Source of the DNA: Diphasiastrum complanatum
Lineage: Eukaryota; Streptophyta; Lycopodiopsida; Lycopodiales; Lycopodiaceae
NCBI GenBank assembly: GCA_029204225.1
Contig: CM055101.1
Coordinates: forward strand, 57,472,920-57,536,919
Length of the DNA: 64,000 nucleotides
Direction: 5' to 3'
The notes under the pieces are model-generated. The model had not been told where the DNA came from, did not search any database, and saw nothing but the letters and a program-made list of their open reading frames with translations. Shown here piece after piece: positions 15,886 through 64,000 of the stretch; within the stretch, counting starts at the first letter, position 1, and each line of letters opens with the position of its first letter. A program made the position numbers and the translations under genes.

Positions 15886-15991
15886 CAACCAAAAAAAAAT
15901 TATTATACAGTTCTGTGGCGTGATAAAATTTGGAGACTAAGTTGTGTACTCAGACTGAGCCATTTTTGTGATTCGGACTTGTCTATCCAGT

Positions 15992-16698: not shown

Positions 16699-16916
16699 TC
16701 TCTCATTTGTCTGTTTGGAGTACCACAAATCACACTAGATAGTGTCTAGTACTGTCATTCAGAGTTAGGAAGCTTCATACTTTTTGATCTCTGTCTTTTG
16801 AACGATCACACATTTCGAAATCTTTGCAAAGAGGAGGCGGTGTAGCCGCCGTGCCGAAGTGGAGAATCTAGAATATTCTCTTTGAAAGTTCTTATATTCT
16901 CTCTACTTTTCATTTT

Positions 16917-17168
16917 GTCCGTACCAATATCGGATCAACGCGCCAGAAGTAAAGAAAACTAAGAGCAGTCATACATTCACACGTCATACTGATATCACAT
17001 ATCAATACCAATATTGGATCGACGCGCCAGAGGTAAAGAAAATCCAAAGCAGTCGTCCATCTGCGCATCATACCGATATCGCATATTTGTACCAATATTG
17101 GATCCACGCACGCGAGCGAAAGAGAATCGCGAGTAGTCGTGCACCCGCGCATCGTACCGATATCAGGT
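16917..17168 (+). repeat. Three tandem 84-bp repeats, array B
   Basis: Core CCAATAT(C/T)GG sites are spaced exactly 84 bp apart (16924, 17008, 17092). Same paired inverted motif as array A, more diverged. Confidence 0.8.
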
Positions 17169-17233
17169 GTCCAACCAAAAATTTACAGTTCTATGGTGTG
17201 ATAAATTTTGTGAGCCAGACTCATCTATCTAGT

Positions 17234-21949: not shown

Positions 21950-22341
21950 GGCGACGGCATCTGTGCGGGTAGATAACAGAACACACACGTCCACAAAACT
22001 AACAAGACACATTAGATATCTCCAATCTCAGAATTAACAGACAACTAGACATCTGCAATCTCAGAGATAATACGCCTGAAGCTAATCTGAGATACAAGAA
22101 AAAATCAAACTCATCACGCGCATTTATCGTTAAAGCCCTTGAAAGGCTAATTATATATTAATAGTAGCAAAACTTGAAACAGAGTCTCTAAGGTGTCCGT
22201 CGCCATTCAAGCCTCAAGGGCTTTGTTATGGACATAGAGTGTCATTCTTATCGCTTGGAAAGCGAATCAGGAAAATTGAGCTAGACGTATGTTGCTCAAA
22301 GTTCAATCTCTATTATCTCGCATGTGGTATGTTGTTGGAAT

Positions 22342-23027
22342 TTAGCCGGAGATTTCGATGGGCTTCACTTCGTGCTTAGGTTTCTCGATTTTGGGAACAG
22401 TGACGGTGAGGACGCCATCCTCAACCTTCGCCTTCACTTCGTCCACTTTCGCATTCTCTGGTAAGCGGAAGCGTCGCAGGAAACTGCCCTGCGTACGCTC
22501 CACCCGATGCCATTTGTCCTTCTTCTCCAACTCCTCTTTCTTGCGTTCCCCGCTTATTTGTAACGTACGTCCATCTTCCACCTGAACCTTTACCTCTTCC
22601 TTTTTCAACCCTGAAATCCGAAACAGCCACAAATCAAGAGGCATTCAAAAGATTTATAATACAGGTCAAAGAAGTCGTACAAAACGAACAACAAGAACTA
22701 CCATAAGGAGCGCAAGATCATGAAAATTATCTGGCAATGTATAAGCCAGGCTGAGAAAGATTATTCGAAATTGTGAGCACAACAAAGTCAAGAGATAAAT
22801 GCTGAGATCGGGAGCAATAAATTACCTGGTAGATCGGCTTTGAAAATGTGAGCCTCCGGAGTTTCAAGCCAGTCTACTCGAGTACTCGCAATGGCGCTCA
22901 CATCCTGGGCGAACTGTCGAGAAGGTGCATTGTCCCACAGAGGAAATCTGTCAAAAGGCTCCAAAAATCTATCCAGGGGATCAAAAACACTCTGATCTCG
23001 ACCAAAGAAGAATGGGGTTAAAGCCAT
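22342..23027 (-). CDS. Cytosolic class I small heat-shock protein (gene 2)
   Basis: Inverted paralogue of gene 1. Exon 1 is 23027-22826, the intron 22825-22611 (215 bp, GT/AG, same position and phase as gene 1), exon 2 is 22610-22342. It encodes 156 residues. By eye 12 residues differ from gene 1, for example DGRTL for DGSTL, LEKKDK for VEKTDK, and the tail [10 protein letters not shown]. The N-terminal arm, full alpha-crystallin domain and I-x-I tail are intact, so it should form class I oligomers, possibly mixed with gene 1 product. Its promoter has the same HSE and TATA layout. It converges on gene 1, with copia relics and spacer between. Confidence 0.95.
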
Positions 23028-23229
23028 ATCCAGTCTAAGATGGTATAACTTCCTTCTCGGAAATGAATTGCTGCGTGCGATTGCTAAGATTGTGTAGAGT
23101 TGATCAATTGAGAATCCCCAATTCAGAGCTTATATCAAATACTATGACCGCGTAGCTGTAGATAGTTCGTCTAGAACTCAGTGCTCACTAATATTATGGC
23201 AGCAATGGAAGAATGAGGAAAATGAGAAA

Positions 23230-23332
23230 TATATATATACAGAGAGAATGTATAGCGTTAAAGAGTAGAAGAAAGGTCTAGAAAGGTCGAGAAAGAGAGA
23301 GAGGAGGAATCTAGAAGACTCGAGAGAATGGA
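23230..23332 (-). promoter_or_regulatory. sHSP gene 2 promoter (HSE and TATA)
   Basis: A TATATATATA box lies at 23230-23239. An HSE-like element (TTCTAGACCTTTC on the minus strand, 23271-23283) sits about 30 bp further upstream, with a second weaker TTCTAGATTC near 23307-23316. Homology to the gene 1 promoter extends to about 23390, through a shared ACGGCCTT block. Confidence 0.6.
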
Positions 23333-23399
23333 AAGGGGAAGTTCATGGCCCAAGGCCGTTTTGGGGTCCCTTTTGTGAGGTTAGGTAAGTTAAAAGAAA

Positions 23400-24179
23400 G
23401 CTAATATGGGTGCGAGGCTCTCAATTCTCCGAAAGATATGGACCATGCAAAATCAGCAGGTTTTTAATAAATTCAAGTCCCTTATCTCAGATACTACTCA
23501 ATTTCAATTCGCTTTGCATTTATGGATGCAACTTAGTACTAAGTCTTGCAGTGACTACCTCCTTGCATGGTGTGCACATAGTCCATTATCGTCTAGTTCT
23601 ACAATTGTTCCTTGGAGGGCTTTGACCGACTCGACCTTAAGCCGTTGTTTACCTTTTGTACCTATACAATAGTGAAAATATATTAATATCTTAAAATATA
23701 GTATCCCTCTAACTTGAAAGAATGGTCATCGCCAAGGTACATGCCAACTATGAAGAGAGAAGCGAAGTCTACACGGGAACGCTCATTGGTGAACAACTTT
23801 GAATTAGGGAGGATCTGGCAAGGGGCATGTGAACAAGTTGACCTTTTACGAGCCAAGGTGAGAGACGGTCACGGGTTGGAAAAGCAGATGGGAGGAGAAG
23901 CATGGGTGGAAAAGAGAAGTGGTCCGGATGGGCTCGTCAAGAGAAAGTGGGGTCGTGTCTGGCTACCGAGAAGGGACCAAATATCGAGAAAGGCAGAAGC
24001 AAGGTCTTTCAAGATAAAGGGCCCCTTAAGGCAAAAGGAGCCACCAAAGCTAAGCAGCTTACAAAAGGAAGAGGGAGGCCTAAGTGGGTGGAGGGGGGGG
24101 AACATCAATAGCAGAGGACATGAAAGAAATAAGAAAGTGCCAATGTTGAGATGGGTAGGAGAGAGGCATTAGAAAAAAT
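23400..24179. other. No supported gene
   Basis: A 152-codon frame at 23714-24172 is strongly basic and lacks any motif or codon-level support. Treated as non-coding. Confidence 0.4.
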
Positions 24180-26341: not shown

Positions 26342-27124
26342 ATCATTAGAGGAATTCTGAATCCAAAAAAGACCCTTAAAGGAATGCCACATAGATTGAC
26401 AAAGTTTATTAATGTAAACTACCAAAATAAATTCATTTTCTATCCAAAGTCTTTTTCATTTCTACCCACACTTTTTTCGATGCTTAACCCTTCTATGTAC
26501 ATTACCATTTGTAGTTCATTGAAAATAGTATAACTTTTTAATTGTAGCTCCGATTGAGACAAAAATTATATCGTTGGAAAGCGCTTGATGAGAGCTTTCC
26601 AACAGTATCCTAGATGACCTAATTCCAAGTACCATTCAAAAGTTATGGCCGATTAAAGTCTCAACAAAAAGAAGTCCAAATATCGCTCTTGTGCGCGGAT
26701 AGAAGGGGCCATCTCTGTGTACAAGAATGATATTTGGACCTTTTTTTGTTGAGAATTTGACCGGCCATAACTTTTGAATGGTAGCCTGGAACAGGTCATG
26801 TAGGATACCGTTGGAAAACTCTCGTCGAGCGCTTCTCAACAATATAATTTTTGTCTCAATCGGAGCTACAGTAAAAACGTTATGCTATATTTAATGATAA
26901 TTGTATTTTATACTATGGATAACATGTCATGCTTGTGGGCTGTCCCCGACGCCAAATTATAAAATTATTAAGGATTTTTTTTTGTTTTTTCAATTCTAAT
27001 GAGCTACGTTACGTAGATTTCAAATTTGAGTGTTTTGATTGGTCCATGTATAAGCAAAATTTGAGAAAAGAATATAAAAAATATCTTTATAAAGGGTCTT
27101 TTTTGGATTTAGAACTCTAATGAT
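26342..27124. mobile_element. TIR element with long internal hairpin (about 783 bp)
   Basis: Ends are inverted: ATCATTAGAG ... CTCTAATGAT, and just inside CTGAATCCAAAAAAGACCC versus GGGTCTTTTTTGGATTTAG. It splits the copia integrase between RSDNEGK and the segment leading to QSNGLAERKN. Inside, about 26520-26690 and 26720-26900 form inverted arms (for example GCTCCGATTGAGACAAAAAT / ATTTTTGTCTCAATCGGAGC). No transposase frame, so a MITE-like non-autonomous element. Confidence 0.75.
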
Positions 27125-34210: not shown

Positions 34211-34865
34211 TGTGAAAATTGTCAACATTTCCTAGCTAGTTTGAGGCCTAAATTGGCTAAAATTGTAAATAGTTTTGGTTCTGGAGTTTCACACGTGTGA
34301 ACCAGGCCACAATGTTTTTATTTACTGTATTTTTTCAGTATGATGAAGTGTCAAACTTCATACCCTTCAAAATGAGACCATTTTGATGTATTTTGATCAT
34401 ATAAGCCATTTTTAGCTATTTTTCCTATATAGGGAATATCTAGGGTCAAGTACCTTCTAGAGAGAGGAGAGAGAGTCATCTTCCTCATCCATAAATAGTA
34501 GGGAAGTCGTGGAGAACAGGTTGGAGAAACCTTTTGTATGCTTCATTGAGATCAATAGATCATTGTCATTGTTTCTTCCTCCATTGAGAGCATTGTTGTG
34601 TGTATTGTCTTCAAGCTATTGTGTATGATCTTAGGTGCTTTCCAAAAGTGATAGGCTGATGTATTATGGACTGTATAATGCTATTTTGGGCCGCACTTGA
34701 TGTTTATGGAAGTTTCAATTTGTGATAAATGCTTTTTGATCAAGTTCTTTGCATTCTAGGTAGCATAGAATGTGTTGCCAATTCCTAGATTATGTAGTTT
34801 GGAGTGCAAGCATTCAAGCCAATGATCTTGGAGTTTAGATCCACTTAGGATCTGTATTTTTCACA
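34211..34865 (+). repeat. Intact copia element, 5' LTR (655 bp)
   Basis: TGTGAAAA ... TTTTCACA inverted ends. It differs from the 3' LTR (39987-40641) at four positions by eye, so insertion was recent. Contains a perfect palindrome TTCACACGTGTGAA. Confidence 0.95.
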
Positions 34866-34877
34866 TGGTATCAGAGC
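34866..34877 (+). promoter_or_regulatory. Primer-binding site (tRNA-iMet type)
   Basis: TGGTATCAGAGC abuts the 5' LTR. The following 1.16-kb leader has no long frame. Confidence 0.9.
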
Positions 34878-36037
34878 TGGTTGGCTTCTATTTACAGTAA
34901 GTATTCCATTTTTGGTGATATTTGGATGTTTGATCAAGTTCTAGCATGATTTTGCATTGCTTTGTTGATCAAATCTTACTAACCTTTGTTTTGTGAGTTG
35001 AACTTGTGGATCAAAAGCATATTTCAGGTCTATTGAAGATCATAGGCTGAAAAGAAACTATTTTGGATCAGATCATAACACCTAATCATTTGTGATTTTG
35101 AGGCTTGTGCATATTCAATACTAACAATGTTCTTTTCAATCCTATTGTTGACAATCTCCATTCTTGGATGAACACTCTCCTTAAGTGGATGAAACTTCTC
35201 CTTAAGTGGATGACAAATGCTCTTTTGAGTGAGTTGTAATTCTCCTAAAGGCTGAGCAAAGCTCCCATTTGGATGAAAGATCCCCTTTTTTGGGTGAACA
35301 TATTGTAAGCTCCATTGTGAAGAGCATATTGTAAAGATTGTCATCAATTTTGGCATAAATTTTGGTGTACTTTGTTGAGCATGTAAGTAACTCTCCTTAT
35401 GTAATTTGATTGGAGCATTTGCTGGAAGGTGTTAACCATTATGCAAGTGTGTTTTCAGGTTCTTAACAGGTTGAGGAACATTCTCATGTGAAGTGATCTT
35501 AGATCTACATCTAAACACCAAGATTTGACAAGATAGTGAAGCTAGTCTTGTGATTCACTAAGTGTGCTCATTCATTCACCTCTAAATCTTGTATTTATCA
35601 CTTGCTGGAGTTTATAAACTTTTAGAAGTGTGGTTTACATGTGGTTTTACAGGTTGAATCAATATCTTAGTGTGTTGATCATATGTTGATCAAGTTTGTT
35701 CATTACTAGGTAATCTTGGCATCCTAGTTTTGGGTATTTTCTAAGAATGCAAGTAACTCTTCACACCATAACTTGATTTGGTCACTTGCTGGAAAGTTTG
35801 AGAGCTTAAGCAAGAGTGTGTTCAGGTTGGTTTGATTTTGTAATCCATTCTTAGTGTGTGCAAAGTGTTGCATGTGTTTCAATCTTCCTTTCTATGCTTG
35901 GAAACCATCTAGGTTCAAGATAGAAGTGTTTTAGGGTCCTAAATCTTCATAGATCTCTTTATCTATCATTTGTTGAGAGAAAAGTGAGTGCTAAGTGCTT
36001 TAGGACAGAACCTAAAAGTTGAAGAAACATTAGAATC

Positions 36038-39000
36038 ATGGCTTCCAATGGTGGGATCATGCTAGAGTCTAGTGAAAGGTTGAGTTCATCAAACTACTCT
36101 ACTTGGAAAGTGAGGATGGAGTCCTTACTTGAGTTGAATGAACTCATGGACATAGTTGCAGAAATTGAAGAGAGACCTCTCACACTTCAAGAGCAACAAA
36201 GGTTTGATAAGAAGGCCAAAAGGGCTCTTCATATCATTAAAATGAATGTTACAAATGAACTTCTCAAGGAAGTTGGAAAGTGTCAAAGTGCAAGTGAGGC
36301 ATGGAATGCCTTAAAGAAGCTCTTTGAATCAAAGTCCACATCTAGGGTATTGACCCTAAGGAGACAAATATTTTCTAGTAGGCAAAGAGAGGGTGAAAGT
36401 GCTCATGCATTTATCTTGAGAGTTAAGTCCCTAAGTGATGATTTAGCATGCATTGATGAGAACATAAAAGATGGTGAAATAGTCCAAGTTATGTTGAATG
36501 GTTTGCTAAATGAACATGCTAACCTTGTGCAAAGTTTTGCCATTCAAAGAGTCTTGCCAAGTGTGGTTGACTTGCAAGAAATCTTATTGGCTGAAGAACA
36601 TAGGTTGCAATCAAAGCTTGATGGTGCATCCTTGCAAGGTGGAGGTGAAGAGGCTTTCTTCACAAAAGGCAAATTCAAGGGCAAAGGTAAAGGCAAAGGG
36701 AAATGGTCCAAAGGTGGTAACTTTGATCATGATGATCACTCTTCCTCTTCCTCTTCTACTAAGAACAATAAGTCAAAGTTCAAGTGCTTTTATTGTGGGA
36801 TAAAAGGTCATTTTGCAAATGAATGTTATAAGAAGAAAAGAGAGCAAGGAGAGAGGCAAGGAAATCTTACAATAGATGAGGAAGAACATAACACATGTGA
36901 ATCACTTGTTATGACTTCAAGTTTGTTAGCCAACATAGATGATAATGATCCTTGGTGGATTGATAGTGGAGCCTCATCTCACATGACAAGACATAAGGAA
37001 TACTTTACATCCTTATTGTCTTATGAGGGAGAAGGTAACATCATCTACACTGCAAATGATGGTCAATGTGACATCAAAGGCATAGGCACTATTCCTATTT
37101 CCCTTTCAACAAATAGGAAAGCAAATCTTGAAAATGTTTTGTACATTCCTTCAATCACTAAGAATTTGCTTAGTGTAAGTCAAATGATTGACAAAGGACT
37201 TGATGTGGAGTTCATTGGAGATGCATGTTTGATAAGTAAATGTGGATCCTTGATTGCTCAAGGTAGGAGGCATGGTAAACTTTTCAAGCTTGATGCATGT
37301 GTGATCTCTAATCATGAAGGATGTATGGCTAGGGAGCAATTGACAAACCAAGAAGTTTGGCACAAGAGGTTGGGCCATCCCAACTTCAAATCTTTGGAGG
37401 TAATGGCAAAGAAAGAGCTTGTTCTTGGTCTCCCTAAAAGTCTTGTTGCAAACAATAGTGTTTGTGAACATTGTGCCTTGTCCAAATCTCATAGACTTGC
37501 TTATTCTAGATCTACTTCTAGATCTAAAGAAGCTTTTCAACTTGTGCATTCTGATATTCATTCTTCTAGTACAACTAGCAATGGTGGGGCAAAGATGTAT
37601 GCAACTTTCATTGATGACTTTAGTAGGTATACTTGGATCTATCTTCTTAAAAGTAAGGATGAAGTGTTTGCTGCATTTGTCAAGTTCAAGAATGAAATGG
37701 AAAACCAATTCAATACAAAGATCAAATGCTTAAGATCTGATAATGGAGGGGAATACACCTCAAATAGGTTCAAAGACTTTTGTATAGCACATGGGATTAA
37801 GAGGGAGATGTCTAGTCCTAGGACTCCACAACAGAATGGAGTGGCCGAGAGGAAGAATAGAACCCTTTGTGAATGTGCCAAGGCAATGAGACTACATGCT
37901 AATCTTGCTAAGTCTTTTTGGGGGGAAGCTTTAGCATGTGCTAACTATCTATGTAATAGATGGACAAGTGCTTCCTTGGATGGTAAAACTCCTCATGAGG
38001 TTCTTTATGGTAGAAGGCCGAGTGTCAAGCATTGTAGGATCTTTGGATGTACATGTTTTGTCAATATCACACTTGATGATAGAACTAAAGAAGATCCTTC
38101 ATCAAAGAAGGGTGTGTTTGTTGGCTATAGTGAAGTAAGCAAGGCTTACACAGTGTACATTCCTTCTACAAAGAAAGTTGTCATAAGTAGGGATGTCATC
38201 TTTCATGAAGAGAATGTTTCCAATGTTGTTGATGTTGATGTTGATGTGCCTACTAATCATCATGATGTGCAAGATGTCTTGGATGAAGATGGAGATGCCA
38301 CTCCAAAGCAAACTTCAAGGAAGACTCAAAGGCAAAGGGCTAAGCCATCAAGGCTAACCTATGATGAAAAAGGAAAGCAAGTGGTGGACAACTCTAACTT
38401 TGCTTTTCTTACCTCTTTTGATGAACCAACTTGTGTAGGTGAAGCAATTCAAAAGAAGGAATGGATCCAAGCCATGGATCATGAGCATCAAGCACTCATC
38501 AAAAGCAACACATGGAGGTTGGTAAAGCTTCCAAAGGACAAGAAGGCAATTGGTTGTAAGTGGATCTTCAAGATCAAGACAAATCAAGATGGATCAATCA
38601 ACAAGTACAAGGCAAGGTTGGTGGCAAAGGGGTATGCTCAAGAATATGGTATTGACTATGATGAGACCTTTGCACCCGTGGCAAAGATGGTAACTATTCG
38701 AATCCTAATCTCTCTTGCAACTCTTTATGATTGGGATATGTGGCAAATGGATGTTACTAATGCCTTCTTGAATGGTGATCTTGAAGAAGATATTTACATG
38801 GAGCAACCCGAGGGCTATGTTTCACATGATGAGCCTAATCATGTGTGCTATCTCCAAAAGAGTTTGTATGGGCTAAAGCAAGCACCAAGGAGTTGGTATG
38901 CTAAGCTCAATTCCTTCTTACTTTCTCAAAACTTTGTTATGAGTGAGTATGATCATTCTCTCTACTTTAGATTGAATGAAAATGATATCACTTTACTTTT

Positions 39001-39991
39001 GATCTATGTTGATGACATTATCTTAAGTGGTGGTAACAATCTAGATATAGATGAAATCAAGATGGCACTCAAAAGAGAGTTTGAAATTCAAGATCTTGGT
39101 AAACTTCATTATATCTTAGGAATAGAGATTATTAGAACTTCTAAATCTACATTCATATGTCAAGAAAAGTATGTTAACTCTATTCTAAAAAGGTTTCATA
39201 TGGAAGATTGTAAAGTTGTTTCTACTCCTATGGAATCAAATGTAAAGCTAACTACAAGAAGTAATGAAAGATCCTTCAAGGACATTACTCTCTATAGAAA
39301 GCTAATAGGATCTCTTATATGGTTAACCATCACAAGACCTGATCTAAGCTTTGTGGTTGGTAAACTAAGTCAATTTATGCAAGATCCTAGTGAGGCTCAT
39401 TGGAAGCTAGGAAAGAGAGTACTTAGATACATCTCGGGATCTAGAGATTTTGGCATCTTGTATGGAGGTACTACACCTAACCTTTGTGGATTTTCAGATT
39501 CAGATTTTGCAGGTGATCAAATGGATAGGAAGTCAACAAGTGCCTTTGCAATCTATCTTGGAGATGGAGTGGTCTCATGGCTATCAAAGAAGCAACCAAC
39601 TATCTCTCTATCTTCCACCGAAGCCGAGTACAAGGCATTAACAACATGCACCAAGGAGATTCTTTGGATCAAGAGGATGTTATTGGATCTTCACTTGCTG
39701 GAACCAGAGAAGACTCCAATCATACTTTGTGATAACCTTTCAGCCCAAAGCTTGGCAAGCAATCCTGTTTTTCATGCAAGGAGCAAGCACATTGAGATTG
39801 CTCACCATTTTGTGAGAGATCAAGTCATTGCCAAAGAGGTGGAGCTTCAACATGTCTCTTCAAAGGAGTGTGTGGCTGATATCTTCACCAAACCATTGGG
39901 AAAGGACCTATATTTAATGCATAGATCTAATCTTGGAATGTGCTCAAAGACTATGTTGAAACTAGCATCCAATGTTGAAGAGGGAGTGTGA
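36038..39991 (+). CDS. Ty1/copia Gag-Pol polyprotein, full-length
   Basis: A single uninterrupted 1317-codon frame. Order: Gag (about 1-215), Lys/Gly-rich stretch, CCHC knuckle CFYCGIKGHFANEC (250-263), protease WWIDSGASSHM (Asp309), integrase zinc region (about 440-485), integrase triad Asp506, Asp568, Glu604 (D-D35-E spacing), reverse transcriptase with YVDD at 990-993, and RNase H with SSTEAEYKAL (about 1192) and CDNLSAQSL. The stop codon lies in the first bases of the 3' LTR, after the tract GAAGAGGGAG. All catalytic residues are present, so the element could be autonomous. It is a Tnt1-like copia and sits inside gag of another copia in the opposite orientation. Confidence 0.97.
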   Translation: MASNGGIMLESSERLSSSNYSTWKVRMESLLELNELMDIVAEIEERPLTLQEQQRFDKKAKRALHIIKMNVTNELLKEVGKCQSASEAWNALKKLFESKSTSRVLTLRRQIFSSRQREGESAHAFILRVKSLSDDLACIDENIKDGEIVQVMLNGLLNEHANLVQSFAIQRVLPSVVDLQEILLAEEHRLQSKLDGASLQGGGEEAFFTKGKFKGKGKGKGKWSKGGNFDHDDHSSSSSSTKNNKSKFKCFYCGIKGHFANECYKKKREQGERQGNLTIDEEEHNTCESLVMTSSLLANIDDNDPWWIDSGASSHMTRHKEYFTSLLSYEGEGNIIYTANDGQCDIKGIGTIPISLSTNRKANLENVLYIPSITKNLLSVSQMIDKGLDVEFIGDACLISKCGSLIAQGRRHGKLFKLDACVISNHEGCMAREQLTNQEVWHKRLGHPNFKSLEVMAKKELVLGLPKSLVANNSVCEHCALSKSHRLAYSRSTSRSKEAFQLVHSDIHSSSTTSNGGAKMYATFIDDFSRYTWIYLLKSKDEVFAAFVKFKNEMENQFNTKIKCLRSDNGGEYTSNRFKDFCIAHGIKREMSSPRTPQQNGVAERKNRTLCECAKAMRLHANLAKSFWGEALACANYLCNRWTSASLDGKTPHEVLYGRRPSVKHCRIFGCTCFVNITLDDRTKEDPSSKKGVFVGYSEVSKAYTVYIPSTKKVVISRDVIFHEENVSNVVDVDVDVPTNHHDVQDVLDEDGDATPKQTSRKTQRQRAKPSRLTYDEKGKQVVDNSNFAFLTSFDEPTCVGEAIQKKEWIQAMDHEHQALIKSNTWRLVKLPKDKKAIGCKWIFKIKTNQDGSINKYKARLVAKGYAQEYGIDYDETFAPVAKMVTIRILISLATLYDWDMWQMDVTNAFLNGDLEEDIYMEQPEGYVSHDEPNHVCYLQKSLYGLKQAPRSWYAKLNSFLLSQNFVMSEYDHSLYFRLNENDITLLLIYVDDIILSGGNNLDIDEIKMALKREFEIQDLGKLHYILGIEIIRTSKSTFICQEKYVNSILKRFHMEDCKVVSTPMESNVKLTTRSNERSFKDITLYRKLIGSLIWLTITRPDLSFVVGKLSQFMQDPSEAHWKLGKRVLRYISGSRDFGILYGGTTPNLCGFSDSDFAGDQMDRKSTSAFAIYLGDGVVSWLSKKQPTISLSSTEAEYKALTTCTKEILWIKRMLLDLHLLEPEKTPIILCDNLSAQSLASNPVFHARSKHIEIAHHFVRDQVIAKEVELQHVSSKECVADIFTKPLGKDLYLMHRSNLGMCSKTMLKLASNVEEGV
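39974..39986 (+). promoter_or_regulatory. Polypurine tract
   Basis: GTTGAAGAGGGAG directly upstream of the 3' LTR; plus-strand priming site. Confidence 0.85.
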
Positions 39992-40641
39992 AAATTGTCA
40001 ACATTTCCTAGCTAGTTTGAGGCCTAAATTGGCTAAAATTGTAAATAGTTTTGGTTCTGGAGTTTCACACGTGTGAACCAGGCCACAATGTTTTTATTTA
40101 CTGTATTTTTTCAGTATGATGAAGTGTCAAACTTCATACCCTTCAAAATGAGACCATTTTGATGTATTTTGGTCATATAAGCCATTTTTAGCTATTTTTC
40201 CTATATAGGGAATATCTAGGGTCAAGTACCTTCTAGAGAGAGGAGAGAGAGTCATCTTCCTCATCCATAAATAGTAGGGAAGTCGTGGAGAACAGGTTGG
40301 AAAAACCTTTTGTATGCTTCATTGAGATCAATAGATCATTGTCATTGTTTCTTCCTCCATTGAGAGCATTGTTGTGTGTATTGTCTTCAAGCTATTGTGT
40401 ATGATCTTAGGTGCTTTCCAAAAGTGATAGGCTGATGTATTATGGACTGTATAATGCTATTTTGGGCCGCACTTGATGTTTATGGAAGTTTCCATTTGTG
40501 ATAAATGCTTTTTGATCAAGTTCTTTGCATTCTAGGTAGCATAGAATGTGTTGCCAATTCCTAGCTTATGTAGTTTGGAGTGCAAGCATTCAAGCCAATG
40601 ATCTTGGAGTTTAGATCCACTTAGGATCTGTATTTTTCACA
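39987..40641 (+). repeat. Intact copia element, 3' LTR (655 bp)
   Basis: Same length and ends as the 5' LTR. Followed by target duplication TTCTA (40642-40646). Confidence 0.95.
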
Positions 40642-40646
40642 TTCTA

Positions 40647-52153: not shown

Positions 52154-53117
52154 GGTTGGTATCTACTAACTACATTTTGCAACCTTTTGAAGACATACAG
52201 TGTTGGGTGACTTTCTCATTTATTTGTAAGTCTCGTACCTAATATTGGTCTTCTGGAAAACCCCTCCCAAATTTCTTATGATATAATTTTGATGGTCAAG
52301 ATCGATCCAATGTCATCCTATGGACAAGAATTGTTGCTCTCTTCACAAGTTATCAAATGGATGTCTCCACTTAGCCTTGTCTCTTACGTAGAGCAATGGC
52401 TATTGCTTATATAAGGGTGACATATTCTTTCATTACTACCATTCTCCTTCTTCTCCCTCTTCCTCTCTTCCTTATCAAAAGATCTCTTTTTGAATTAATT
52501 TCTTAAATGAAACCTAAGCATATGTTAGGATAATATTTAGTATAATATGGGTTGATAACCTAAGTTCTCTTAAAAGCACATGGATTTGTGCAAGATCTAT
52601 TGCATTCATAGGGATTGGAACGATGTGGAATTGCGCTAATCTTATTGTGAATGTTAGGGTTAAACTCTTTAGTAGTTGTATATGCACACATGTATTGTTT
52701 AACTTGTTAATAAGATACAATTAGACTTTAAGTTTCATAAAATAGGAGGATAGCTTGTGTGCTCTTGGAAAGTATGGATATGCTGAAGAATTACGAAAAC
52801 TATACATTACCTGTTCTTCATACAACAAGTAAAAGTATTTGTATGGCATGGATTTGCCCCTATACTTATGTACATTTAAATCCAAGCTACTCCTAGTTTG
52901 CTATATGCAATCTATTTATTATAGCTAGATTTCAATACTTAATGAATGATTGAATATAAAGATAAGGACCAATACAAATATATACTGATCATAATGGCAT
53001 AGGCCTTGATATGGTAAGGTTACGGTTTGTCCTACCGCTATAAGCAATACGTAGTAGGGAAGATTGGACTATATAATGTCATTGGTATTGCATGTTGTCA
53101 AGTGGGTGAGCTTATTT
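52151..53117. other. No recognisable gene
   Basis: AT-rich spacer; nothing identified on either strand. Confidence 0.45.
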
Positions 53118-53168
53118 TGTTTTGAATTATTCTCATAAAACCTGCATTTTATAAAGCTTCTCAATTTT

Positions 53169-54089
53169 TTAAAGTCTTCTACTCATAAAAAATGTTTATT
53201 TGCTTGTATAAAAAATGAGTATTTAAAGATATCGGTTTAAGAAAACTTGTCACGATTTTTCCTCTGACTCCATGATTCAAGCAACATGACACAATGGCCA
53301 CATAGGCATCCATGTGATTTCACCTGTTGCAGTGCCAATAGGCAGATTTATAGAAGCTAAGCAAATCAGATTTTACAAATAAAAATAATCAGAACCTTAT
53401 TGTAGCTAGAATCTTTCCCTTGAGTAAAGCTCATCATTATGTATATAATGTCATAAAAGAATTATTATCTATATTATAAGTAGGCAATGTGATAAGACAT
53501 TTATTAGAAGGAGAAAGGGTGTTGGGAGTTCTAGGGCCAATAAATGATGCACTGTTTTGTCCAGGATCACAATTTGTACAGTCATCTAAACTAATACTCT
53601 TATCAATAAAAAAATATCTATACCTACAATCTTCGACTTTTGAGACTTTGTACCACTGGAAGAAGCAGCTTTAGAAGTGGAAGGGCGAGTTTTCGAATAG
53701 TCAAAAATATTTAACAAAAGAAAAAAACAAATCCAGACTCAAAATCAACAAATCTATATTTTTTATTGTGAATTGGGCACTCATCTACAGACTTGAAATC
53801 ATTATATAACTTGGTGAACATTCTGTCAAGCTTAGCTTTACAGCTATGCTTGTCAAGTGTCACAAGGTCCTGATAATGAATCATGTCCTTCTTCTAAGAT
53901 CTAAATAAGGAGTACTGATCAGAGACTTAAATCTGAGATAAATCTCAGAAAATGCTTCCACATCGGGACCCTCAGTAATAGAAGGAAGAATAAAAAGAAA
54001 AGGAGAAAGAAGGGATTTGAAATACTCAAAATTATCACTAATACCAAATTCATGAAAAACAAAAAGCAAACTAGAATCGAAATTAGACA
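53169..54089 (-). pseudogene. ORF A, copy 3 (with ~410-bp extra segment)
   Basis: Start at 54089 (MSNFDSSLLFVFHEF). A frameshift replaces the in-phase stop of copies 1 and 4 near 53897, then DMIHYQDLV resumes. After GPSTSK-type sequence (here RPSTSK) about 410 bp (53259-53669) absent from copies 1 and 4 intervenes, before the shared end LNTH...MSRRL. The extra segment may be an insertion here or sequence (possibly intronic) deleted in the others; the flanks share only TTT. Confidence 0.5.
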
Positions 54090-54905
54090 TTTTGAGCAAA
54101 AAATACAAATGTGAAATCTCCAATATCGCTCTCAGGTGCAAAATGTAGGTCAGACAAAAATTTCAAGGCAATGTGCACTCGAAAGAGATATAATAACATA
54201 GGGTATCGGATCCGAGCGCATGTACAAAAATAAAAAAAGAAGCAGATGTAAGATGCGCTTAAATGTAATATTGGACTATGCAGTATCGGTTCCAGGTGCA
54301 AGATAGCCAACGGAACGTAGATAGTGGAAAAGGTGCACTTGAAATCGATATCCGGATAAGAAATAACAAATTTGCGTCAAAATCCACGTAAAAAATGACC
54401 TATTTATAAAAAACGTTTGCACATGTGGAAGAGTTTCAAAACGACACGTGTTGCCACAAGATTGGTCATTAATATTTCGCGGTACAGACAATGATTGATC
54501 TGACATCTATCACGTGCAGAATGACACATGTCAAAATCTGATTCGTGCATGTATCCCGACCCACGTGGCCTCATAATTGAGTCATCATTATCAGTACAAA
54601 CAATCCACGTGGACCAGTTAGATGCTGACATGTATCATCATCCATTTTTTTCACATGTGCAAAAATTTCCTATATATAAACCCTTGGAATTTTCATTTTT
54701 TTTTGTAGAATTTTTGGTTTTCGCTCCCAATATCGCTCTCAAGCGTGCTCTCTCTTCGCAAAATACTCCACCTTCTCATCGTGCACTCGAGACCAATACT
54801 GCTGTGATTCCAATATCGCTTTCAAGCGCAATTCTCTTTTCTGCACATATTCTTTATCTATCTTGCGCTCAAAACCGATATTAACTTCTGATATCGATCT
54901 CAACC
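54090..54905. promoter_or_regulatory. Divergent promoter and leaders, copy 3
   Basis: TATA boxes at 54399-54408 (toward ORF A) and 54671-54680 (toward H3), ACGTG boxes between (about 54440, 54510, 54560, 54605). Motif copies include CCAATATCGCTCTCAGGTGC (54120), TATCGGATCCGAGCGC (54204), CCAATATCGCTCTCAAGCG (54728) and CCAATATCGCTTTCAAGCGC (54811), with others inverted. Confidence 0.6.
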
Positions 54906-55064
54906 ATGCCGGCCTTACAGGCTGTTATAGAAGACATTTTGGCCCAGTTTTTTGAGGATACTTGTCTTTTGACAATGCATGGTAAGCGTGTCAGTATCAT
55001 GCCAACAGATTCTCGTCATTCTCTAAAGACTTCGGGATCTTTATTATGGTCCACATGTGGATAA
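54906..55064 (+). pseudogene. H3-fold fragment, copy 3 (alpha2 onward only)
   Basis: ATG fused to ALQAVIEDILAQFFEDTCLL, then TMHGKRVSIMPTD, 52 codons before TAA. Same N-terminal deletion as copy 2. The alternative frame just after MPTD gives a DIQLARRIRGER-like end running into the C-terminal extension, so one base was probably lost here. Confidence 0.75.
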
Positions 55065-56215
55065 CACCAGCAACTCCAGAGACTTGCCTCTGAATAGAAC
55101 AAACTTGCTGACTACCTCTAGGAGGAAAAAGAGGTAGCCTGAAACCAAAAAAGATGGATTTCAAAGGCCAGCTGTTTCTCTTCTTCCTTGAGTTATCCCT
55201 GCCAAGAGACCTCGCATGAGCTCTGAATCAGATGCTGGAGAATTTGATTCAGACCAAGAATCACCCTCTCCTCCTCGTGTTATTCGTCCAGCTCCTCAGA
55301 AGGTTTCTTCACCAAAAGTGATGATTACCCAAGAGGAGCTCGACAAAATAACCGAGAAATCTATAAATATTGTATCTACTTCTCTTTCTGCTCCTGTACA
55401 TAATCTTTTTGTCAGAATTTCATACGATCCTGCTCAAGTGTTTTTTTATTCTGACCATTAAAACCTGTACGAGGCTTACTTAGCTAATAAAATTGATCTT
55501 CTCGGCAATTATTTTGATTTCTTTCTTCCAGATTCACATAGAAGCTTTAGATTAGGTCCCAAATTTTGTGTCGAGCTTAAAGATAAAACACCAGAGATTA
55601 CAGATGTGATAGTAGAAGCCGAAGGATGCTTTTTGCAGGATAGTATTAGTTCCGATTCTCATGGTGTAGTTTTTGTTGTTAGTCCATTTTTTAGGGAGCG
55701 ATGAAGGCAAAAGAAGCCAATTTTGATAAGGCTGTATATCTCATCGAATGCAATCCAGTGGCAAAATTTTATTCCATTCCATATGAGAATAAGGATTGCT
55801 TGTTTTTTTTTGTTGCTTTAACTTGGATTGTTGTAGTCGGCATTGCTTTAATAAGTAAGGATTTATTGATATTTGTATTTTGATTGTTGCAGTTGGCATT
55901 CGAGCCTGAACATTCTTTCTGTAAAGATAAATAAGGAGGGAGTATCAAATTTTCTATGTGTAAAAGTAAACTCAATTGTAATACACCTAGAGAATTTGAT
56001 TTTCCACTTCATGATGTCGTTCGAGAAATACCAACAACGACAACCTCAATTGGAGAGATAACCATAAAATCTCTCAAGGTATATTCTATTTATCTCTGAT
56101 ATGCATGTATTTTTTTTTTTAGTTTATAGCATAAATAAATTTTTTGTCATAATATTACTAATTTTTGTTTAATATATGCAGTGTGTACAGCAAATGGACG
56201 TTGTCAGTTGTGCAT
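55065..56215 (+). pseudogene. C-terminal region of H3-unit gene, copy 3
   Basis: Best copy for reading this part. Linker NTSNSRDLPLNRTN, basic SRRKKR, KRPRM cluster, acidic SESDAGEFDSDQESPSPPRV (55216 on), QEELDKITEKSINIVS, then after a stop at 55459 YEAYLANKIDLLGNYFDFFL, FRLGPKFCVELKDKTPE and KEANFDKAVYLIECNPV. A later exon (about 55898-56078, acceptor TTGTTGCAG) ends at donor AAG|GTATATTC (56079), with acceptor ATATGCAG at 56181. The KR-rich clusters look like nuclear-localisation signals. No known domain recognised. Stops at 55126, 55187 and 55459 disable it. Confidence 0.55.
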
Positions 56216-56434
56216 AGTTCATTCTGTATAATACAAAGCTCTTTTTTGAGTGGTATAATTTACAAGTGGATGTAGATATTGAAAAGATAATATTTTGTTC
56301 ATTTGTAATTCCTTTCATTCTGATTCATATTTTTTTACTATCATTGTTTGCAATTTGTTGATTCACATGTTTTGTGATGACAATTCACTCTTGAGTTGTA
56401 TACTACTGACGATGTATATAGATTTTGGCAATAA

Positions 56435-56743
56435 TTGATCAGAACCTATGTACAGAACGGTGTAAGCATTGCAACTGAAATCAAGGGCCCTCAAAAGCAA
56501 GCTGCTCCTGCCTTCACAGCCTCTCAGGTTGCTCAGGATGCATATATTATTACACATGATAAAAAAGGAATAGAATTCCTTCCCAATACAGAGGAAGGCG
56601 ATATTATAGCAGAGAGGCCTCTTGTCTTAAAAGGCCTAGAAGTCCTTCCCAAAATAGAGGAAGACAAGATTATAGAAGAGAGAACTGTTCCCTTATCAGT
56701 TCTTAATAGTGATACTAAAAACATAGAAAAATTTACTGAATAG
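56435..56743 (+). CDS. ORF D (102 codons, unknown)
   Basis: Intact frame starting MIRTYVQNGVSIATEIKG. It contains two tandem copies of a motif: GIEFLPNTEEGDIIAER and GLEVLPKIEEDKIIEER, joined by PLVLK, and ends NIEKFTE. Acidic, with no signal peptide or membrane segment. The left-arm counterpart (7395-7080) keeps the repeat with mostly conservative changes but has a stop. It may be an exon of the H3-unit gene upstream, on the same strand. Function unknown; moderate doubt that it is expressed. Confidence 0.4.
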   Translation: MIRTYVQNGVSIATEIKGPQKQAAPAFTASQVAQDAYIITHDKKGIEFLPNTEEGDIIAERPLVLKGLEVLPKIEEDKIIEERTVPLSVLNSDTKNIEKFTE

Positions 56744-56945
56744 AGATCCATTTGTAAATAGAGATACAAAAAAAAAAAAAAGATACAATCATTTTACAGG
56801 TAAACAACCGGTTTATGGAGTTTTTATTGATATCAATATAGATTCTTACAATCAGGTTGTGTCGATAATAGTGTAATATTGGAATACAATTTTCTATATT
56901 GATAAAAAGACATGATAATTGGAATGTATTTGTTGATAGTGAATC

Positions 56946-57880
56946 TCAGTGTTCTTCCATAAATGTGATCGTTTCGTCAATATCTCTACATTTGATCTCG
57001 AGCTCATGTCTTTTACGTACCTGCATAAAACTAATACAAACTGAGTTACAATAAATACAGAGATTGTATTCGAAAGTTTTGATTGAAACTATTCATAAAG
57101 AATCGAGTGTTTATAGTTACTTACGACTTTACCATTGAAAACGAATCTGAAGTCTGAAAGTACATTATCTTGTAGGAGCAATAGTTCCTGCCTGATATAA
57201 TTTAGACTCCAATATTCTTCCACATCAACACATGTCAAAACGACATCATTGTATATAATTTCAATATTTTTTCGTTTTGAATGTCCACTGGCTTTCAAGC
57301 CTTGATCGAGTGGCACCCATTTACCTTAATTTTTTTCCATCTTTGATAATAGAAGCATAAGCTCAACATTTGTTTTTCAATTTGATAACGGAAGCACATG
57401 GAAGACATTTTAATTTTGAATTCTATTTCTCCATCTGATCTTTTGTCCCATCCTTCATCCATAAGTTCAGATAATAAACTATCTGATAAATTTTTGCATA
57501 CAAACATTGTTGAGATTTTGTGTACATTGGCACTTGAAAAGAAATCCACAAATATATTCAAGAAAATAAACCAACTCAATATGACTGTTTTTGATCCCAT
57601 GCTTATCTTTAATGAATTGTTTACATCATTATATATCTTGCAACGAAATGATTCTGAAATTGCAATATCTGGTGCAATCCATTCATCACTTTCAAAACTA
57701 TGTAATGGAATTGGGACTATTTGTCCAAAATCTCCTTTTGTATCAGGAATGTACATTGATTCATAAAAAAAGATCCCACTATCAACTAGATCTTTTGCAG
57801 TTCTACCTCGATATTGCAGCTGTCCAGTAACAGTGTGAATAACATTTAACACACCTGCTAGAGATCCACTAGGCTCCCAT
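56946..57880 (-). pseudogene. Gene E, right copy (unknown family, two exons seen)
   Basis: From 57880 leftward: WEPSGSLAGVLNVIHTVTGQ, GIFFYESMYIPDTKGDFGQI, VPIPLHSFESDEWIAPDIAI, ELMDEGWDKRSDGEIEF, then after a frameshift at an A-run near 57330 GKWVPLDQGLKASGHSKRKN, WSLNYIRQELLLLQ, DFRFVFNGK; intron 57124-57021 (104 bp, GTAAGT...TGCAG); last exon 57020-56946 ending FMEEH. Otherwise open over about 185 codons, less decayed than the left copy. The 5' end is not identified. No family recognised; the C-terminal module could be a small beta-rich domain, a guess. Confidence 0.6.
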
Positions 57881-57937
57881 TCATTTATGTTGGATGGATA
57901 TAAATCTACAAGAAGATAATGATCAGATTGACAAGTT

Positions 57938-58804
57938 TGTTGGATTTATTTCCTTTACTTTCCTAAATCCCATTTTATCTGCCTCCATTCATGCTGCATA
58001 TTTATTCTCGTTGTCGTGCAGTCTACATATTAACATGCAAATTCTCACAGGCGAAGAAAAGACAAAAGAATCACGACACTGTGTTTTTACACGTGTTCTG
58101 GTGACAACCAACGTTCACCTCAGCAAAGGCTGATGTCGCACCCTTTTCAGGCTCACCCCATGCAGCTGTGCTAACAGACTGGACAATGATTGCAGCCACC
58201 CAGGATCTCCTACAGACAACACATCCACCCTGTACTTTCTTCATCTGCACACCTGTAACAATATGTATATATACTGAATACCATTTGCGTACTCAATTTT
58301 ATGATTGAAGATCAGAAGAGAAGAGTGTATGTAAATTAGCATCAGAAGCTTATAAGAGAAATAGACGAAGTAGTTGTGCATTGATTCTTTATTGTTAGTA
58401 TTAAGGTTTCATTCCTTCACAAATTGAAATAAGCTTTGTAGAGCATGCAGTTTCATCTGCTATTGTCTTGTTTTCTACCACATTCTTGACATGTATACTT
58501 GATATACTTAATTTGATAACAACGTTCAGATCTGTGTTAATATTGGTATGCTTACTATTCATTCTGTCTGACTTTTCTGATTACTCATTTTGGTAATTTT
58601 GCTCATTTCTGATTGCTCATTCACGACTAATTATCAGTCGAGCCCAGTCTAGCTCTTCACGAATCATTTGCGACACATAATCTGTCTTGTTGTTCACGGC
58701 AATTATTCTTCTGGTGCTTCATCCATTAATGTTTGGCTGCGTAATCAAGAATGACTGTGATTTTCATCACTAACGTTCTGTTTGTTTTGATAGGTGTAGT
58801 CATG
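57938..58804 (+). repeat. Solo LTR-like block
   Basis: Starts TGTTGGATTTATTTCC (compare TGTTGGATTATTCTCC at 28613) and ends near GTGTAGTCATG (compare GCGTAGTCATGCA at 29501), with similar length. It sits in the right arm where the left arm has a direct copia-gene E junction, so it is part of the extra insertion. Confidence 0.45.
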
Positions 58805-59788
58805 TTCTGTTCGTTTCACTACACACGAACACTTTCTGTTCGTGTTTCATTTCTCGTTCGTGTTCATCTTCCCTTTTGAGCTAATTTTTGTTTCTCACAC
58901 ACGACACCCTCTTTTCTCTCTCTCTCTCTTAAATAAGTTTACTATTAGATATTTATGAATGACAAAAATCTAAATTTAAAAAATATCAATGCTCATAGTT
59001 GCTTTTTTTGTGACCCTGATGGTTGAATCCTTGCACATTTATCTCTAAATGCATATATACATGTTGGACTAAAATTTTAGATATAGATTTTCCAACTGAT
59101 GATGTTCTGAAATCCAAATTTTGGCCTTCCAATAAGATCAAAATGATAGTTTTGACATTTTGCTTTTTCGAAATGCTCCTCTTGATGCTAGATGCATCAA
59201 AACCCAAGAGGTTTATGAATATTTTCTTGGCACCCATAATCCATTATCATCTGTCTCGTTGAATAGAAGCATAGAGTCAATTGAGGAGCACGGCCTTCTT
59301 GATGGCGTCATTCGTAATGTGCATGCAAAAATCTGAAACAATGAACTATGAATCTGAAAATTTGCGTAGACAAAAAGCCATGAATTTGAGAAAATGTGTT
59401 GGCTTAAATTTAAAACACTGGTCTATTTGACGTCACGAATTAACTCTGGTTAGCCCTGTTAACCATGACTTGAAAATGCATATACATTAATGGTACATCG
59501 ATTTTCTCATCTCAACCATCTGTCATATTCATTTTCAATATTTTTGGATCTCTTCGGGCAGTGATGAGCGGGAAGGGCAGACCTCATCAACCAATAGCAT
59601 TTCCACTGTTGCCCGATGAAACATCAATATATTTTAAAAGTTTTTATTTTATTTATGTTTGGAAAATTCTACATTACGTAGAACCCCGATTTCAACGTTT
59701 CAATTGGTCCACATGGCAATGAAAATAAAATAAAAAATAAAAAAAATCTTTTTCAAAGACCCTCTTCGGGCTCTAAGTTTCTCTAATG
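58805..59788. mobile_element. Insertion ending in a CATTAGAG terminus
   Basis: No coding content recognised; the 83-codon frame at 59237-58986 has no motif. Includes a cluster of TGTTCGTGTT repeats (58803-58870). The right edge (59743-59788) matches the 9540-9584 terminus and abuts the truncated gag. Confidence 0.4.
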
Positions 59789-61235: not shown

Positions 61236-61332
61236 TGTCATACATGCAACTCGAAAGGATAGTGTTCAATGCTAAGGAAATCTCTTTTGAGTTATCCTCA
61301 AAAAACTTGCATTTTATAAAGCTTCTCAATTT

Positions 61333-61841
61333 TTAAAGCCTTCTACTCATAAAAAGGTTCATTTGCTTGTCCAAAAAATGAGTATTTAAAGATACCGGTT
61401 TAAGAAAACTTGCCACGGTTTTAGAAGTGGAAGGGCCAGCTTTCGAATCGTCAGAAATATTTAACAAAAGAAAAGAAACAAATGCAGACTGAAAATCAAC
61501 AAATCTATATTTTTTATTGTGAATTGGGCACTCATCTACAGACTTGAAATCATTATGTAACTTGGTGAACATTCTGTCAAGCTTAGCTTTATAGCTATGC
61601 TTGTCAAGTGCCACCAGGTCCTGATATCGAATCATGTCCTTATTCTAAAATCTACATAAGGGAGTACTGATCAGAGACTTAAATTTGAGATAAATCTCAA
61701 AAAATGCTTCCACACCAGGATCCTCAATAATAAGAATAAATAAAAAGAAAAGAAAAAGAAAGGATTTGAAATACTCTAAATTATCACTAATACCAAATTC
61801 ATGAAAAACAGAAAGCAAACTAGAATCGAAATTAGACATTC
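61333..61841 (-). pseudogene. ORF A, copy 4 (one in-frame stop)
   Basis: Same sequence organisation as copy 1, including the TAG between the two halves. The first half (81 codons of the longer frame) is identical at protein level to copy 1, and the second half differs by one residue. Confidence 0.5.
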
Positions 61842-62735
61842 TGAGCAAAAAAAACAAATGTGAAATTTTCAATATTGCACTCAAGCGCAAAATGTAGGTT
61901 AGACAAGAATCTCAAGGCAATGTGCGCTCGAAAGAGATATAAGAACATAGGGTATCGGATCCGAGCACGTGTACAAAGATTAGAAAAAAAAAGATGTAAG
62001 ACGCGCTTGAATGCGATACCAGACTATGCAGTATTGGTTCCAGGCGCAAGATTGTCAACAGAACGTAGACAGTGGAATGGGCGCACTTGAAATCGATATC
62101 CGGATAAGAAATCAAAAATTTGCGTGAAAATCCACGTTAGAAATGACCTATATATAAAAAAATTTTGCACGTGTGGAAGAGTTCCAAAAGGACACGTGTT
62201 GTCGCATGATTGGTCATTAATATTTCGTCGTATAGACAATGATTGATCTGACGACTATCACGTGCCAAATGACACATGTCAAAATCTTATTGATGCACAT
62301 GTCCTGATTCACGTGGCCTCATTATTGAGTCATCATTATCAGTACGCACAATCAATGTGGACCAGTTAGATGCCGACACATGTCATCGTCCATTTTTTGC
62401 ACACGTGTGAAAATTTTCTTTATATACACCCTTGGAATTTTCATTTTTCTTCGCAGAATTTTTGGTTTTCGCTCCCAATATAGCTCCCAAGAGCTCTCCC
62501 TCTTTGCAAAATACTCCACCTTCTCACCATGCGCTCGAGACCGATACTGTTGTGATTCTAATATCACTTTCAAGTGCAATTCTTCATAATCTCTATCTAT
62601 CTTGTACTCGAAACCGATATTCAGTTCTGGTATCGATCTCAAGCATTTTCTGATCGCTAATTCTTTTGTTTTAATTCCCTTGCGCATGGATTCAAATTTT
62701 TTTTTTCTAATTTATTTATTTTTATTTTAAGAATA
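61842..62735. promoter_or_regulatory. Divergent promoter and leaders, copy 4
   Basis: TATA boxes at 62147-62156 (toward ORF A) and 62421-62426 (toward H3), about 264 bp apart, with ACGTG boxes between. About eleven copies of the ATATCG-AGCGC motif flank this core: ORF A side at 61870, 61921 (inverted), 61951, 62002 (inverted), 62029 and 62081 (inverted); H3 side at 62476, about 62530 (inverted), 62558, about 62604 (inverted) and 62630. Confidence 0.65.
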
Positions 62736-63112
62736 ATGGCTAGGACCAAATTTGCTACCCGTGCCATAACCATTGTACAGCCATCCCATGTATGTGTTCC
62801 CCCTGGTACTGGCCGTAGACATGACAGAAAGCAGGTCTGGCCGAGGGAGATTAGACATCAACTGAACTGTTGATCCCTAGGGCTACTTTCAGCCGATCTA
62901 TCAAGAATGTCACTCTGTCACTTGGGCTAGATGTTTGTTTTGCCGTGACAGCCATGCAGACCTTACAGAGTGCTATAGAAGACTTTTTGGCCCAGTTTTT
63001 TGAGGATACTTGTCTTTTGGCAATGCATGGTAAGCGTGTTACCATCATGCCAACAGATTCTCGTCATTCTCAGAAGACTTTGGGATCGTTATTCTGGTCT
63101 ACATGTGGATAA
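62736..63112 (+). pseudogene. Histone H3-fold gene (CENH3-like?), copy 4, frameshifted
   Basis: Best H3 copy. The first frame (62736-62873) reads MARTKFATR, a 30-residue divergent tail and REIR. A shift of one base after REIRHQLN opens 62867-63112: LLIPRATFSRSIKNVTL, LDVCFAVTAMQTLQ, IEDFLAQFFEDTCLL, AMHGKRVTIMPTD, then a terminal frameshift. H3 has about 10 more bases between REIR and LLI, so a deletion explains the shift; copy 1 shares it. H3-family identity is clear; assignment to CENH3 rests on LIP, EDFL and the divergent tail, and is tentative. Confidence 0.85.
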
Positions 63113-64000
63113 CGCCAGCACCTCTAGAGACCTGCCTCTGAATAGAACAAACTTGCCGACTACCTCTAGGAGGAAAAAGAGACAGCCTGAAACCAAGAAA
63201 GCTGGATTTTGAAGGCCAGTTGTTTCTCTTCCTCCTTGAGTTATCCCTACCAAGAGACCTCGCATGAGCTTTGAATCAGATTTTGGAGAATCTGATTCAG
63301 ACCAAGAATCACCCTCTCCTCCTCGTGTTATTCGTCTAGCTCCTCAGAAGGTTTCTTTACCAAAAGTGATGATTACCCAAGAGGAGCTCGAAAAAATAAC
63401 CGAGAAATTTGTAAATATTGTATCTACTTCTCTTTCTGCTCCTGTATATAATCTTTTTGTCAAAATTCCATACGATTCTACTCAAGTTTTGTTTTTTATT
63501 TTGACCATTATGAGTAGTATGAGGCTTACTTAGCTAATAAAATTGATCTTCTTGGCAATTATTTTGATTTCTTTCTTCTAGATTCACATAGAAGCTTTAG
63601 ATTAGGCCCCAGATTTTGTGCCGAGCTTAAAGATAAAACACCAGAGATTATAGATGTAATAGTAAAAGCCGAAGGATGCTTTTTGTAGGATAGTATTAGT
63701 TCCGATTCTCGTGGTGTAGTTTTTGTTGTTAGTCCATTTTTTATGGGAGCGATGAAGGCAAAATAAGCCAATTTTGAGAAGGCTGTATATCTCATCGAAT
63801 GCAATCCAGTGGCGAAATTTTATTTGATTCCATATGAGAATAAGTAAGGATTGCTCGTTGGATTGTTGCAGCCGGCATTGCTTTATTAAGTAAGGATTTA
63901 TTGATATTTGTATTTTGATTGTTGCAGTCGGCATTGGAGCCTGAACATTCTTTCTGTAAAGATAAATAAGGAGGGAGCATCAAATTTTCTATGTGTAAAA
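63113..64000 (+). pseudogene. C-terminal region of H3-unit gene, copy 4 (runs off window)
   Basis: NASTSRDLPLNRTN, SRRKKRQPETKK, KRPRM, ESDFGESDSDQESPSPPRV, QEELEKITEKFVNIVS, and later FRLGPRFCAELKDKTPE and KAVYLIECNPVAKFY. More stops than copy 3 (for example 63209, 63239 and about 63518). It continues past the window edge. Confidence 0.55.

Follow-up and report, generated by a model that had tools for sequence, protein, structure and literature searches.

We describe a family of multi-gene DNA transposons in the clubmoss Diphasiastrum complanatum (Lycopodiaceae), which is bounded by inverted ends of about 37 bp beginning CATTAG and carries a gene for a histone H3-like protein in the middle of the element. 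The finding is the family itself. Its decayed member was seen in a 64,000-nucleotide stretch of contig CM055101.1 (positions 57,472,920 to 57,536,919 of the forward strand), referred to below as the window. The H3-like feature there is a dead, decayed copy of the element, and its identity as part of an H3-carrying transposon family is assigned with very high confidence.

Results

The window contains four decayed copies of an H3-like gene

The original prediction had placed the start of a gene with a histone H3 fold at 62736, and the ATG of its MARTK sequence does fall there. The H3 assignment was borne out by three kinds of search. The Pfam Histone profile (PF00125, cut-off 26.4 bits) matched 62858-63112 (84 aa) with 62 bits (E = 8.3e-17), and pieces of the other three window copies scored 48.4, 37.1 and 33.4 bits, so that pieces of all four copies, for which a profile check had been proposed, lie above the cut-off. 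The same four places were returned by tblastn with a canonical H3 sequence as the query (E = 2e-14, 2e-11, 6e-7 and 2e-6). In addition, a search of solved structures gave histones H3.1/H3.2 as top matches (best E = 5.5e-13). In an alignment, the H3 helices are collinear. A lack of Histone-profile matches, which had been named as grounds for giving up the prediction, was therefore not encountered. The copies and their parts lie as follows.

About 1913-4700: copy A, with the H3-like gene on the minus strand
2126-3245, minus strand: copy A H3-like gene, frames broken, core 3129-2947
4139-4645, plus strand: copy A ORF A
6189-9586: copy B, with the H3-like gene on the minus strand
6189-6828, plus strand: copy B gene E, truncated at 6189, where a copia-like stretch starts
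8020-8914 (end approximate), minus strand: copy B H3-like gene, front half missing
9528-9586: copy B terminal inverted repeat, reading ...CTCTAATG
53116-59788: copy C, with the H3-like gene on the plus strand
53717-54051, minus strand: copy C ORF A
54900-55800 (end approximate), plus strand: copy C H3-like gene, front half missing through the deletion seen in copy B
57116-59283, minus strand: copy C gene E in two pieces (59283-58989 and 57918-57116)
59732-59788: copy C terminal inverted repeat, gene-E end
61285-64000: copy D, with the H3-like gene on the plus strand
61372-61850, minus strand: copy D ORF A, in divergent orientation to the H3-like gene
61851-62735: copy D divergent promoter region, the intergenic stretch that separates ORF A from the H3-like gene
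62736-63847, plus strand: copy D H3-like gene, MARTK start at 62736, core 62858-63085, C-terminal domain to the YENK stop, frame broken

Copies A-B and D-C form inverted arms with 92-94% identity in their long matches, and the deletion of the front half of H3 is common to B and C. A frame shift separates REIR from STELL in copies A and D, and a frame change close to the end of the H3 core is seen in all four. The window copies terminate in CATTAGAGAAACTTAGAG, at 9586 and 59788, and the terminal inverted repeat of copy B is 93% identical over 58 bp to 59732-59788.

The window also holds a recent copia element at 34211-40642, with LTRs (34211-34866 and 39987-40642) that are 99.4% identical and an open polyprotein frame of 1317 aa. 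Further inverted and direct repeats (13008-14387 with 22029-23422, and 15409-17916) show 78-80% identity.

The repeat unit is a DNA transposon with defined ends

Three diverged lineages of the family were seen. Aligned copies gave one shared end, and the opposite end was found in three of four copies after a 10-kb extension. Complete elements include the following.

e21: 8957 bp, 38-bp terminal inverted repeats, 95% identical
e20: 7946 bp, 37-bp terminal inverted repeats, 100% identical
e17: 8681 bp, 35-bp terminal inverted repeats, 100% identical

Paired lineage-1 ends alone gave three further complete elements of 8137, 8737 and 7402 bp. The ends begin CATTAG in all three lineages, reading CATTAGGGC in lineage 1 and CATTAGAGGAG in lineage 2, and such inverted ends bound the coding unit at many places, as expected of a DNA transposon. 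The lineage-1 inverted end (e.g. L020:2564-2600) holds a perfect hairpin, GGCCCTTTTTGGACTCAAAAAGGGCC. Non-autonomous derivatives of about 1.1 kb with lineage-1 ends occur at L025:1084-2173 and L033:61-1200.

The element runs from gene E through the H3-like gene and further ORFs to the transposase. Lineage 2 and the window share a divergent arrangement of H3 and ORF A, with H3 on the strand opposite gene E, whereas in lineage 1 H3 lies on the strand of gene E and is convergent with the next ORFs, which had no BLASTP match to the lineage-2 ORF A. Because both the H3 strand and the neighbouring ORFs differ, the central module either is inverted between the two lineages or was separately acquired. 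Between lineages 1 and 2, the transposase is 47% identical over 204 aa, H3 41% over 124 aa and gene E 31% over 186 aa. Within lineage 2, the elements L017+L032 and L024+L029 form a mosaic: their identity is mostly 92-98% near both ends but 76-88% in the stretch that begins at the front of H3 and spans the intergenic region. This pattern suggests that either the central module was exchanged or the ends were converted.

Gene E has a database relative in D. complanatum, O6H91_02G063400 (P0157). A BAH-like look of its first exon was dropped for want of Pfam support, and, with respect to a RAG2-like kelch/PHD gene, the other element ORFs searched gave no Pfam match over the cut-off.

The window pieces match gene E, H3 and ORF A of lineage 2: the second piece of copy C gene E is 58% identical over 208 aa (E = 8e-72), copy B gene E 57% over 139 columns (E = 1e-49) and copy D ORF A 41% over 115 columns (tblastn, E = 3e-18). 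ORFs of at least 80 aa from the transposase region had no match in the window at E <= 1e-3. The evidence thus supports the prediction that an H3- or CENH3-like gene was amplified within a repeat unit that also has a divergent promoter, ORF A and gene E, the unit being a transposon with defined ends. The proposed separate gene ORF D was an error; it corresponds to the C-terminal portion of the H3-like protein, since the H3-like gene of the dispersed relative L040 runs between MMARNK and YENK as a single frame interrupted by three in-frame stops.

Copies of the element are dispersed through the genome

The genome (1,744,706,496 bases in 5176 contigs) was searched with the Histone profile, and 150 out of 6325 candidates were scored. 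At least 153 matches were found, 13 of them canonical H3 at 164-165 bits; the other matches listed scored 83-110 bits, and many of these have frames that stay open for 200-417 aa. All 20 H3-like loci taken from these matches, selected for long open frames, fall in two related repeat lineages (15 in lineage 1 and 5 in lineage 2). The genome-wide search suggested in the original prediction thus yielded open-frame H3-like copies, of which L009 and L024 score 101 and 98.6 bits against PF00125. Furthermore, a search for the lineage-1 end, allowing up to 2 mismatches, gave 858 + 836 occurrences (1694 ends), against 0 + 0 for the reversed control pattern.

Window-type matches are partly clustered. 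Among the 40 scored, 26, including the window's own four, lie in C10:56.85-57.62 Mb and 14 on other contigs or elsewhere on C10, so that confinement to one decayed locus, the other stated ground for rejecting the prediction, does not apply. Local amplification explains the copies in C10:56.85-57.62 Mb only. An ordinary H3 pseudogene multiplied by local segmental duplication alone would account for that cluster, but not for the 14 matches elsewhere or for complete elements with their ends elsewhere; it was ruled out as the full explanation by the dispersed copies, and we regard it as highly improbable.

Long H3-like proteins in the database (120 listed of 355) matched over 25-40% of the query, with little past the H3 core and a best E of 1.9e-17 among the matches listed. 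P0049, P0091 and others are about 390 aa long, with an MARTKQTARK start, a long insert and an H3 core. A viral source found no support: the H3 piece had no relative in IMG/VR, and the transposase model found no match in BFVD at E <= 0.001.

The transposase homologue has a predicted RAG1/Transib-type fold

Modelling of P0010, which is a database homologue of the transposase and not the clubmoss protein itself, predicted a RAG1/Transib-type fold with the motifs D, D, C(2)C, H(4)H and E, assigned following the RAG1 motif numbering. RAG1 belongs to the recombinase that assembles antibody genes in vertebrates. The Foldseek TM-scores of the model were modest (0.34/0.46). In VIA-align, the rows below RAG1/Transib were weaker (P element 7.8, ISCth4 6.6, Hermes 5.7), and no CACTA row appeared. 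The transposase profile gave nothing meaningful against PDB sequences (best E 0.072), and Pfam transposase models had no match among the element ORFs. On the predicted fold, the element would move by a RAG1-like DDE reaction.

No consistent target-site duplication was found in nine end pairs (best score 0.48 against a shuffled 95% value of 0.49), a set that includes the pair L037/L038, whose ends are separated by 11.4 kb and may not belong to the same element, and two derivatives of about 1.1 kb. One insertion could be read directly in the window.

26344-27122: 779-bp non-autonomous derivative with lineage-2-type ends, within an older copia integrase frame

The flanks of this derivative, when joined (...SDNEGKYISTKFKQYC...), align gap-free to three other integrases, those of L007, of L008 and of the copia element in the window itself. 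This one insertion therefore made no duplication (0 bp).

The H3-like tails read keep K4 and have no K9

The three lineages differ in protein layout. The lineage-1 protein starts MSEEMARTKQTARDPRV, followed by a long SR-, Q- and P-rich part with the H3 core at the C-terminus; the lineage-2 protein starts MDRRKQTRRD, with the H3 core near the N-terminus and then a domain of some 200 aa; and the lineage-3 protein starts MARTKSTARV/A and continues with the core and then a domain of about 250 aa, with YENK as its last residues. In the 22 tails read (11 in lineage 1, from 18 loci; all 5 in lineage 2; 6 in lineage 3), which represent three lineages rather than 22 independent events, K4 is kept in 22 and K9 in none. 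ARTKQTAR is exact, as in H3, in 5 of the 11 lineage-1 copies. An in-frame ATG lies four codons upstream of MARTK in lineage 1, given which the tail there may not be N-terminal. Plant CENH3 likewise starts with MARTK and lacks K9, and for this reason the tail may have been inherited.

The cores are 0.54-0.55 identical to host H3 in lineage 1, 0.52-0.54 in lineage 2 and 0.41-0.42 in lineage 3; between lineages, the identity is 0.48-0.52 (1 and 2) and 0.53-0.57 (2 and 3). Since lineage-1 H3 resembles lineage-2 H3 no more closely than it does host H3, identity does not prove common descent of the transposon H3s. These low identities, the extra 200-250 residues after the core in lineages 2 and 3 and the position of the gene between gene E and the transposase would suit an architectural accessory of transposition, a non-nucleosomal histone-fold DNA binder that wraps or bends the element ends, for which TnpA of En/Spm offers a role model. 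That an H3 core and an H3-like tail start are kept has no obvious place in end binding, and we consider such an accessory possible but unlikely.

Lineages 2 and 3 group together in a tree (97/95), with lineage 1 apart from them. The transposon H3s and plant CENH3 split from canonical H3 with 82/91, and a single transposon-H3 group received 66/0 and appeared in 68% of bootstrap trees. Cse4 and CENP-A land on the canonical-H3 side of this tree, which comprises about 100 columns and long branches. All of these groupings are weak. An LIPxAPF-type motif, which rice and maize CENH3 carry, is present in all three lineages, and loop 1 is one residue longer than in canonical H3 in lineage 2. The core with LIP, the MARTK start and the divergent tail resemble plant CENH3; in contrast, the clubmoss genes are transposon-borne and multi-copy, some with the exact ARTKQTAR. 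A CENH3-like element, whose protein would load at centromeres or seed CENH3-type chromatin at the element and so aid its retention or targeting, would agree with the motif, the split and the longer loop. We judge it improbable: loop 1 has the canonical length in lineages 1 and 3, the tree is short in columns and long in branches, and Cse4 and CENP-A fall on the other side of the split.

Signs of selection on the H3 core

In sets selected by Histone score and open frame, the pN/pS of the H3 core was 0.14 for three lineage-2 copies and 0.375 for 12 lineage-1 copies; transposase exon 2 gave 1.21 (seven lineage-1 copies). Two of the lineage-2 copies, L017 and L024, differ in H3 by a pS of 0.38 and a pN of 0.03, with an intergenic region 76-84% identical, and so low a pN at this pS would be hard to get by picking copies alone. 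Lineage-3 copies chosen by DNA had a core pN/pS of 0.66 (four dispersed copies), and for window copies A and D the ratio was 0.92 for the core and 1.05 for the entire protein; the lineage-3 ratios reflect mostly decay. Three complete elements were picked by their ends only. One of them retains H3, with its frame broken where the core starts; in the other two the H3 core is partly or wholly missing. Between lineages, pS is 0.65-0.86 (0.74-0.80 for lineages 1 and 2).

Part of this pattern would be expected of a passenger, that is, a host CENH3 or H3 captured once or twice by transduplication and carried without function, for which the fungal hAT elements are a precedent (PMC6710886). The ratios of window copies A and D and the H3 losses in two of the three end-picked elements point in this direction, as does the distance of lineage-1 H3, which lies no closer to lineage-2 than to host H3 and which for this reason lowers our confidence in the explanation preferred below, in its role for the histone and in the bolder reading, and raises that in a passenger. 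Two observations are unlike neutral decay, however: the pS of 0.38 with a pN of 0.03 between the lineage-2 copies, and the protein identity of 0.48-0.52 that lineages 1 and 2 still share at a pS of 0.74-0.80. A functionless passenger therefore seems rather unlikely to us.

Discussion

Taken as a whole, the evidence is best explained, with moderate confidence, by a transposon family that would move by a RAG1-like reaction and carry an anti-silencing or self-chromatinising H3. For the histone by itself, an anti-silencing or self-chromatinising gene is the most likely role, which we put forward tentatively. The H3-like protein would take the place of host H3 in the nucleosomes of the element. Its tail retains K4 but has no K9, so that silencing by H3K9 methylation could not be written on it. 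A bolder reading, which we hold to be doubtful, is that these elements form a new superfamily of lycophyte RAG1-fold transposons without target-site duplication, whose self-encoded H3 core gene would supply K9-less, K4-bearing nucleosomes that keep the element open and steer the transposase, much as RAG is linked to H3K4me3 through RAG2.

Precedents for an H3-carrying transposon are fungal. In Dothideomycetes, high-copy hAT elements of about 9.5 kb, with a hAT transposase and an 8-bp target-site duplication, have captured the host H3 coding sequence, and the copies in P. fijiensis were inactivated by RIP (PMC6710886); H3-carrying hAT elements are also reported in Pyrenophora (PMC3538342). The clubmoss family is likewise a high-copy DNA transposon with an H3-like sequence, but it has a predicted RAG1-fold transposase and several lineages, neither a hAT transposase nor an 8-bp duplication was found, and its H3 is strongly diverged with signs of selection. 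The original prediction knew of no mobile or repeated unit of this composition. That stands for the present family, which is absent from the libraries and listings searched, and titles and abstract openings in the literature yielded neither a plant transposon with an H3 gene nor a RAG1-type transposon in lycophytes; it does not stand for H3 capture as such, given the canonical H3 in the fungal elements (PMC6710886).

With Transib and RAGL elements, including ProtoRAG, the transposase shares its predicted fold and, in homologue P0010, the D-D-E motifs with C(2)C and H(4)H. RAGL and Transib make 5-bp duplications and RAGL ends start with CAC (PMC7204232), whereas the clubmoss ends start with CAT, no 5-bp duplication was found, the host is a land plant, and the gene content includes the H3-like gene, further ORFs and gene E. 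Elements of the CMCT group (CACTA/EnSpm-Mirage-Chapaev, ESTA, Lanisha and Plavaka) differ as well: the clubmoss ends read CATTAG rather than CACTA/G, no TA or 2-3 bp duplication was seen, and no Pfam transposase profile matched.

Other transposons carry chromatin genes, such as those for the Vandal anti-silencing proteins and those of TET/JBP- and SET-bearing elements (PMC12730594). The clubmoss element resembles them in carrying a gene expected to counter silencing; their genes encode regulators or enzymes, and the clubmoss gene encodes a nucleosome building block. Transposons are known to counter chromatin silencing with enzymes and regulators; a histone, if maintained by selection in a transposon, would be a new strategy, that of bringing one's own nucleosome. 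Moreover, the fold predicted on the homologue would place a RAG1-fold transposase with multi-gene cargo in an early vascular plant lineage. With 1694 lineage-1 ends, the family also offers natural copies by the hundred for asking what a selfish element keeps of an H3 tail, as it does K4, and what it drops, as it does K9.
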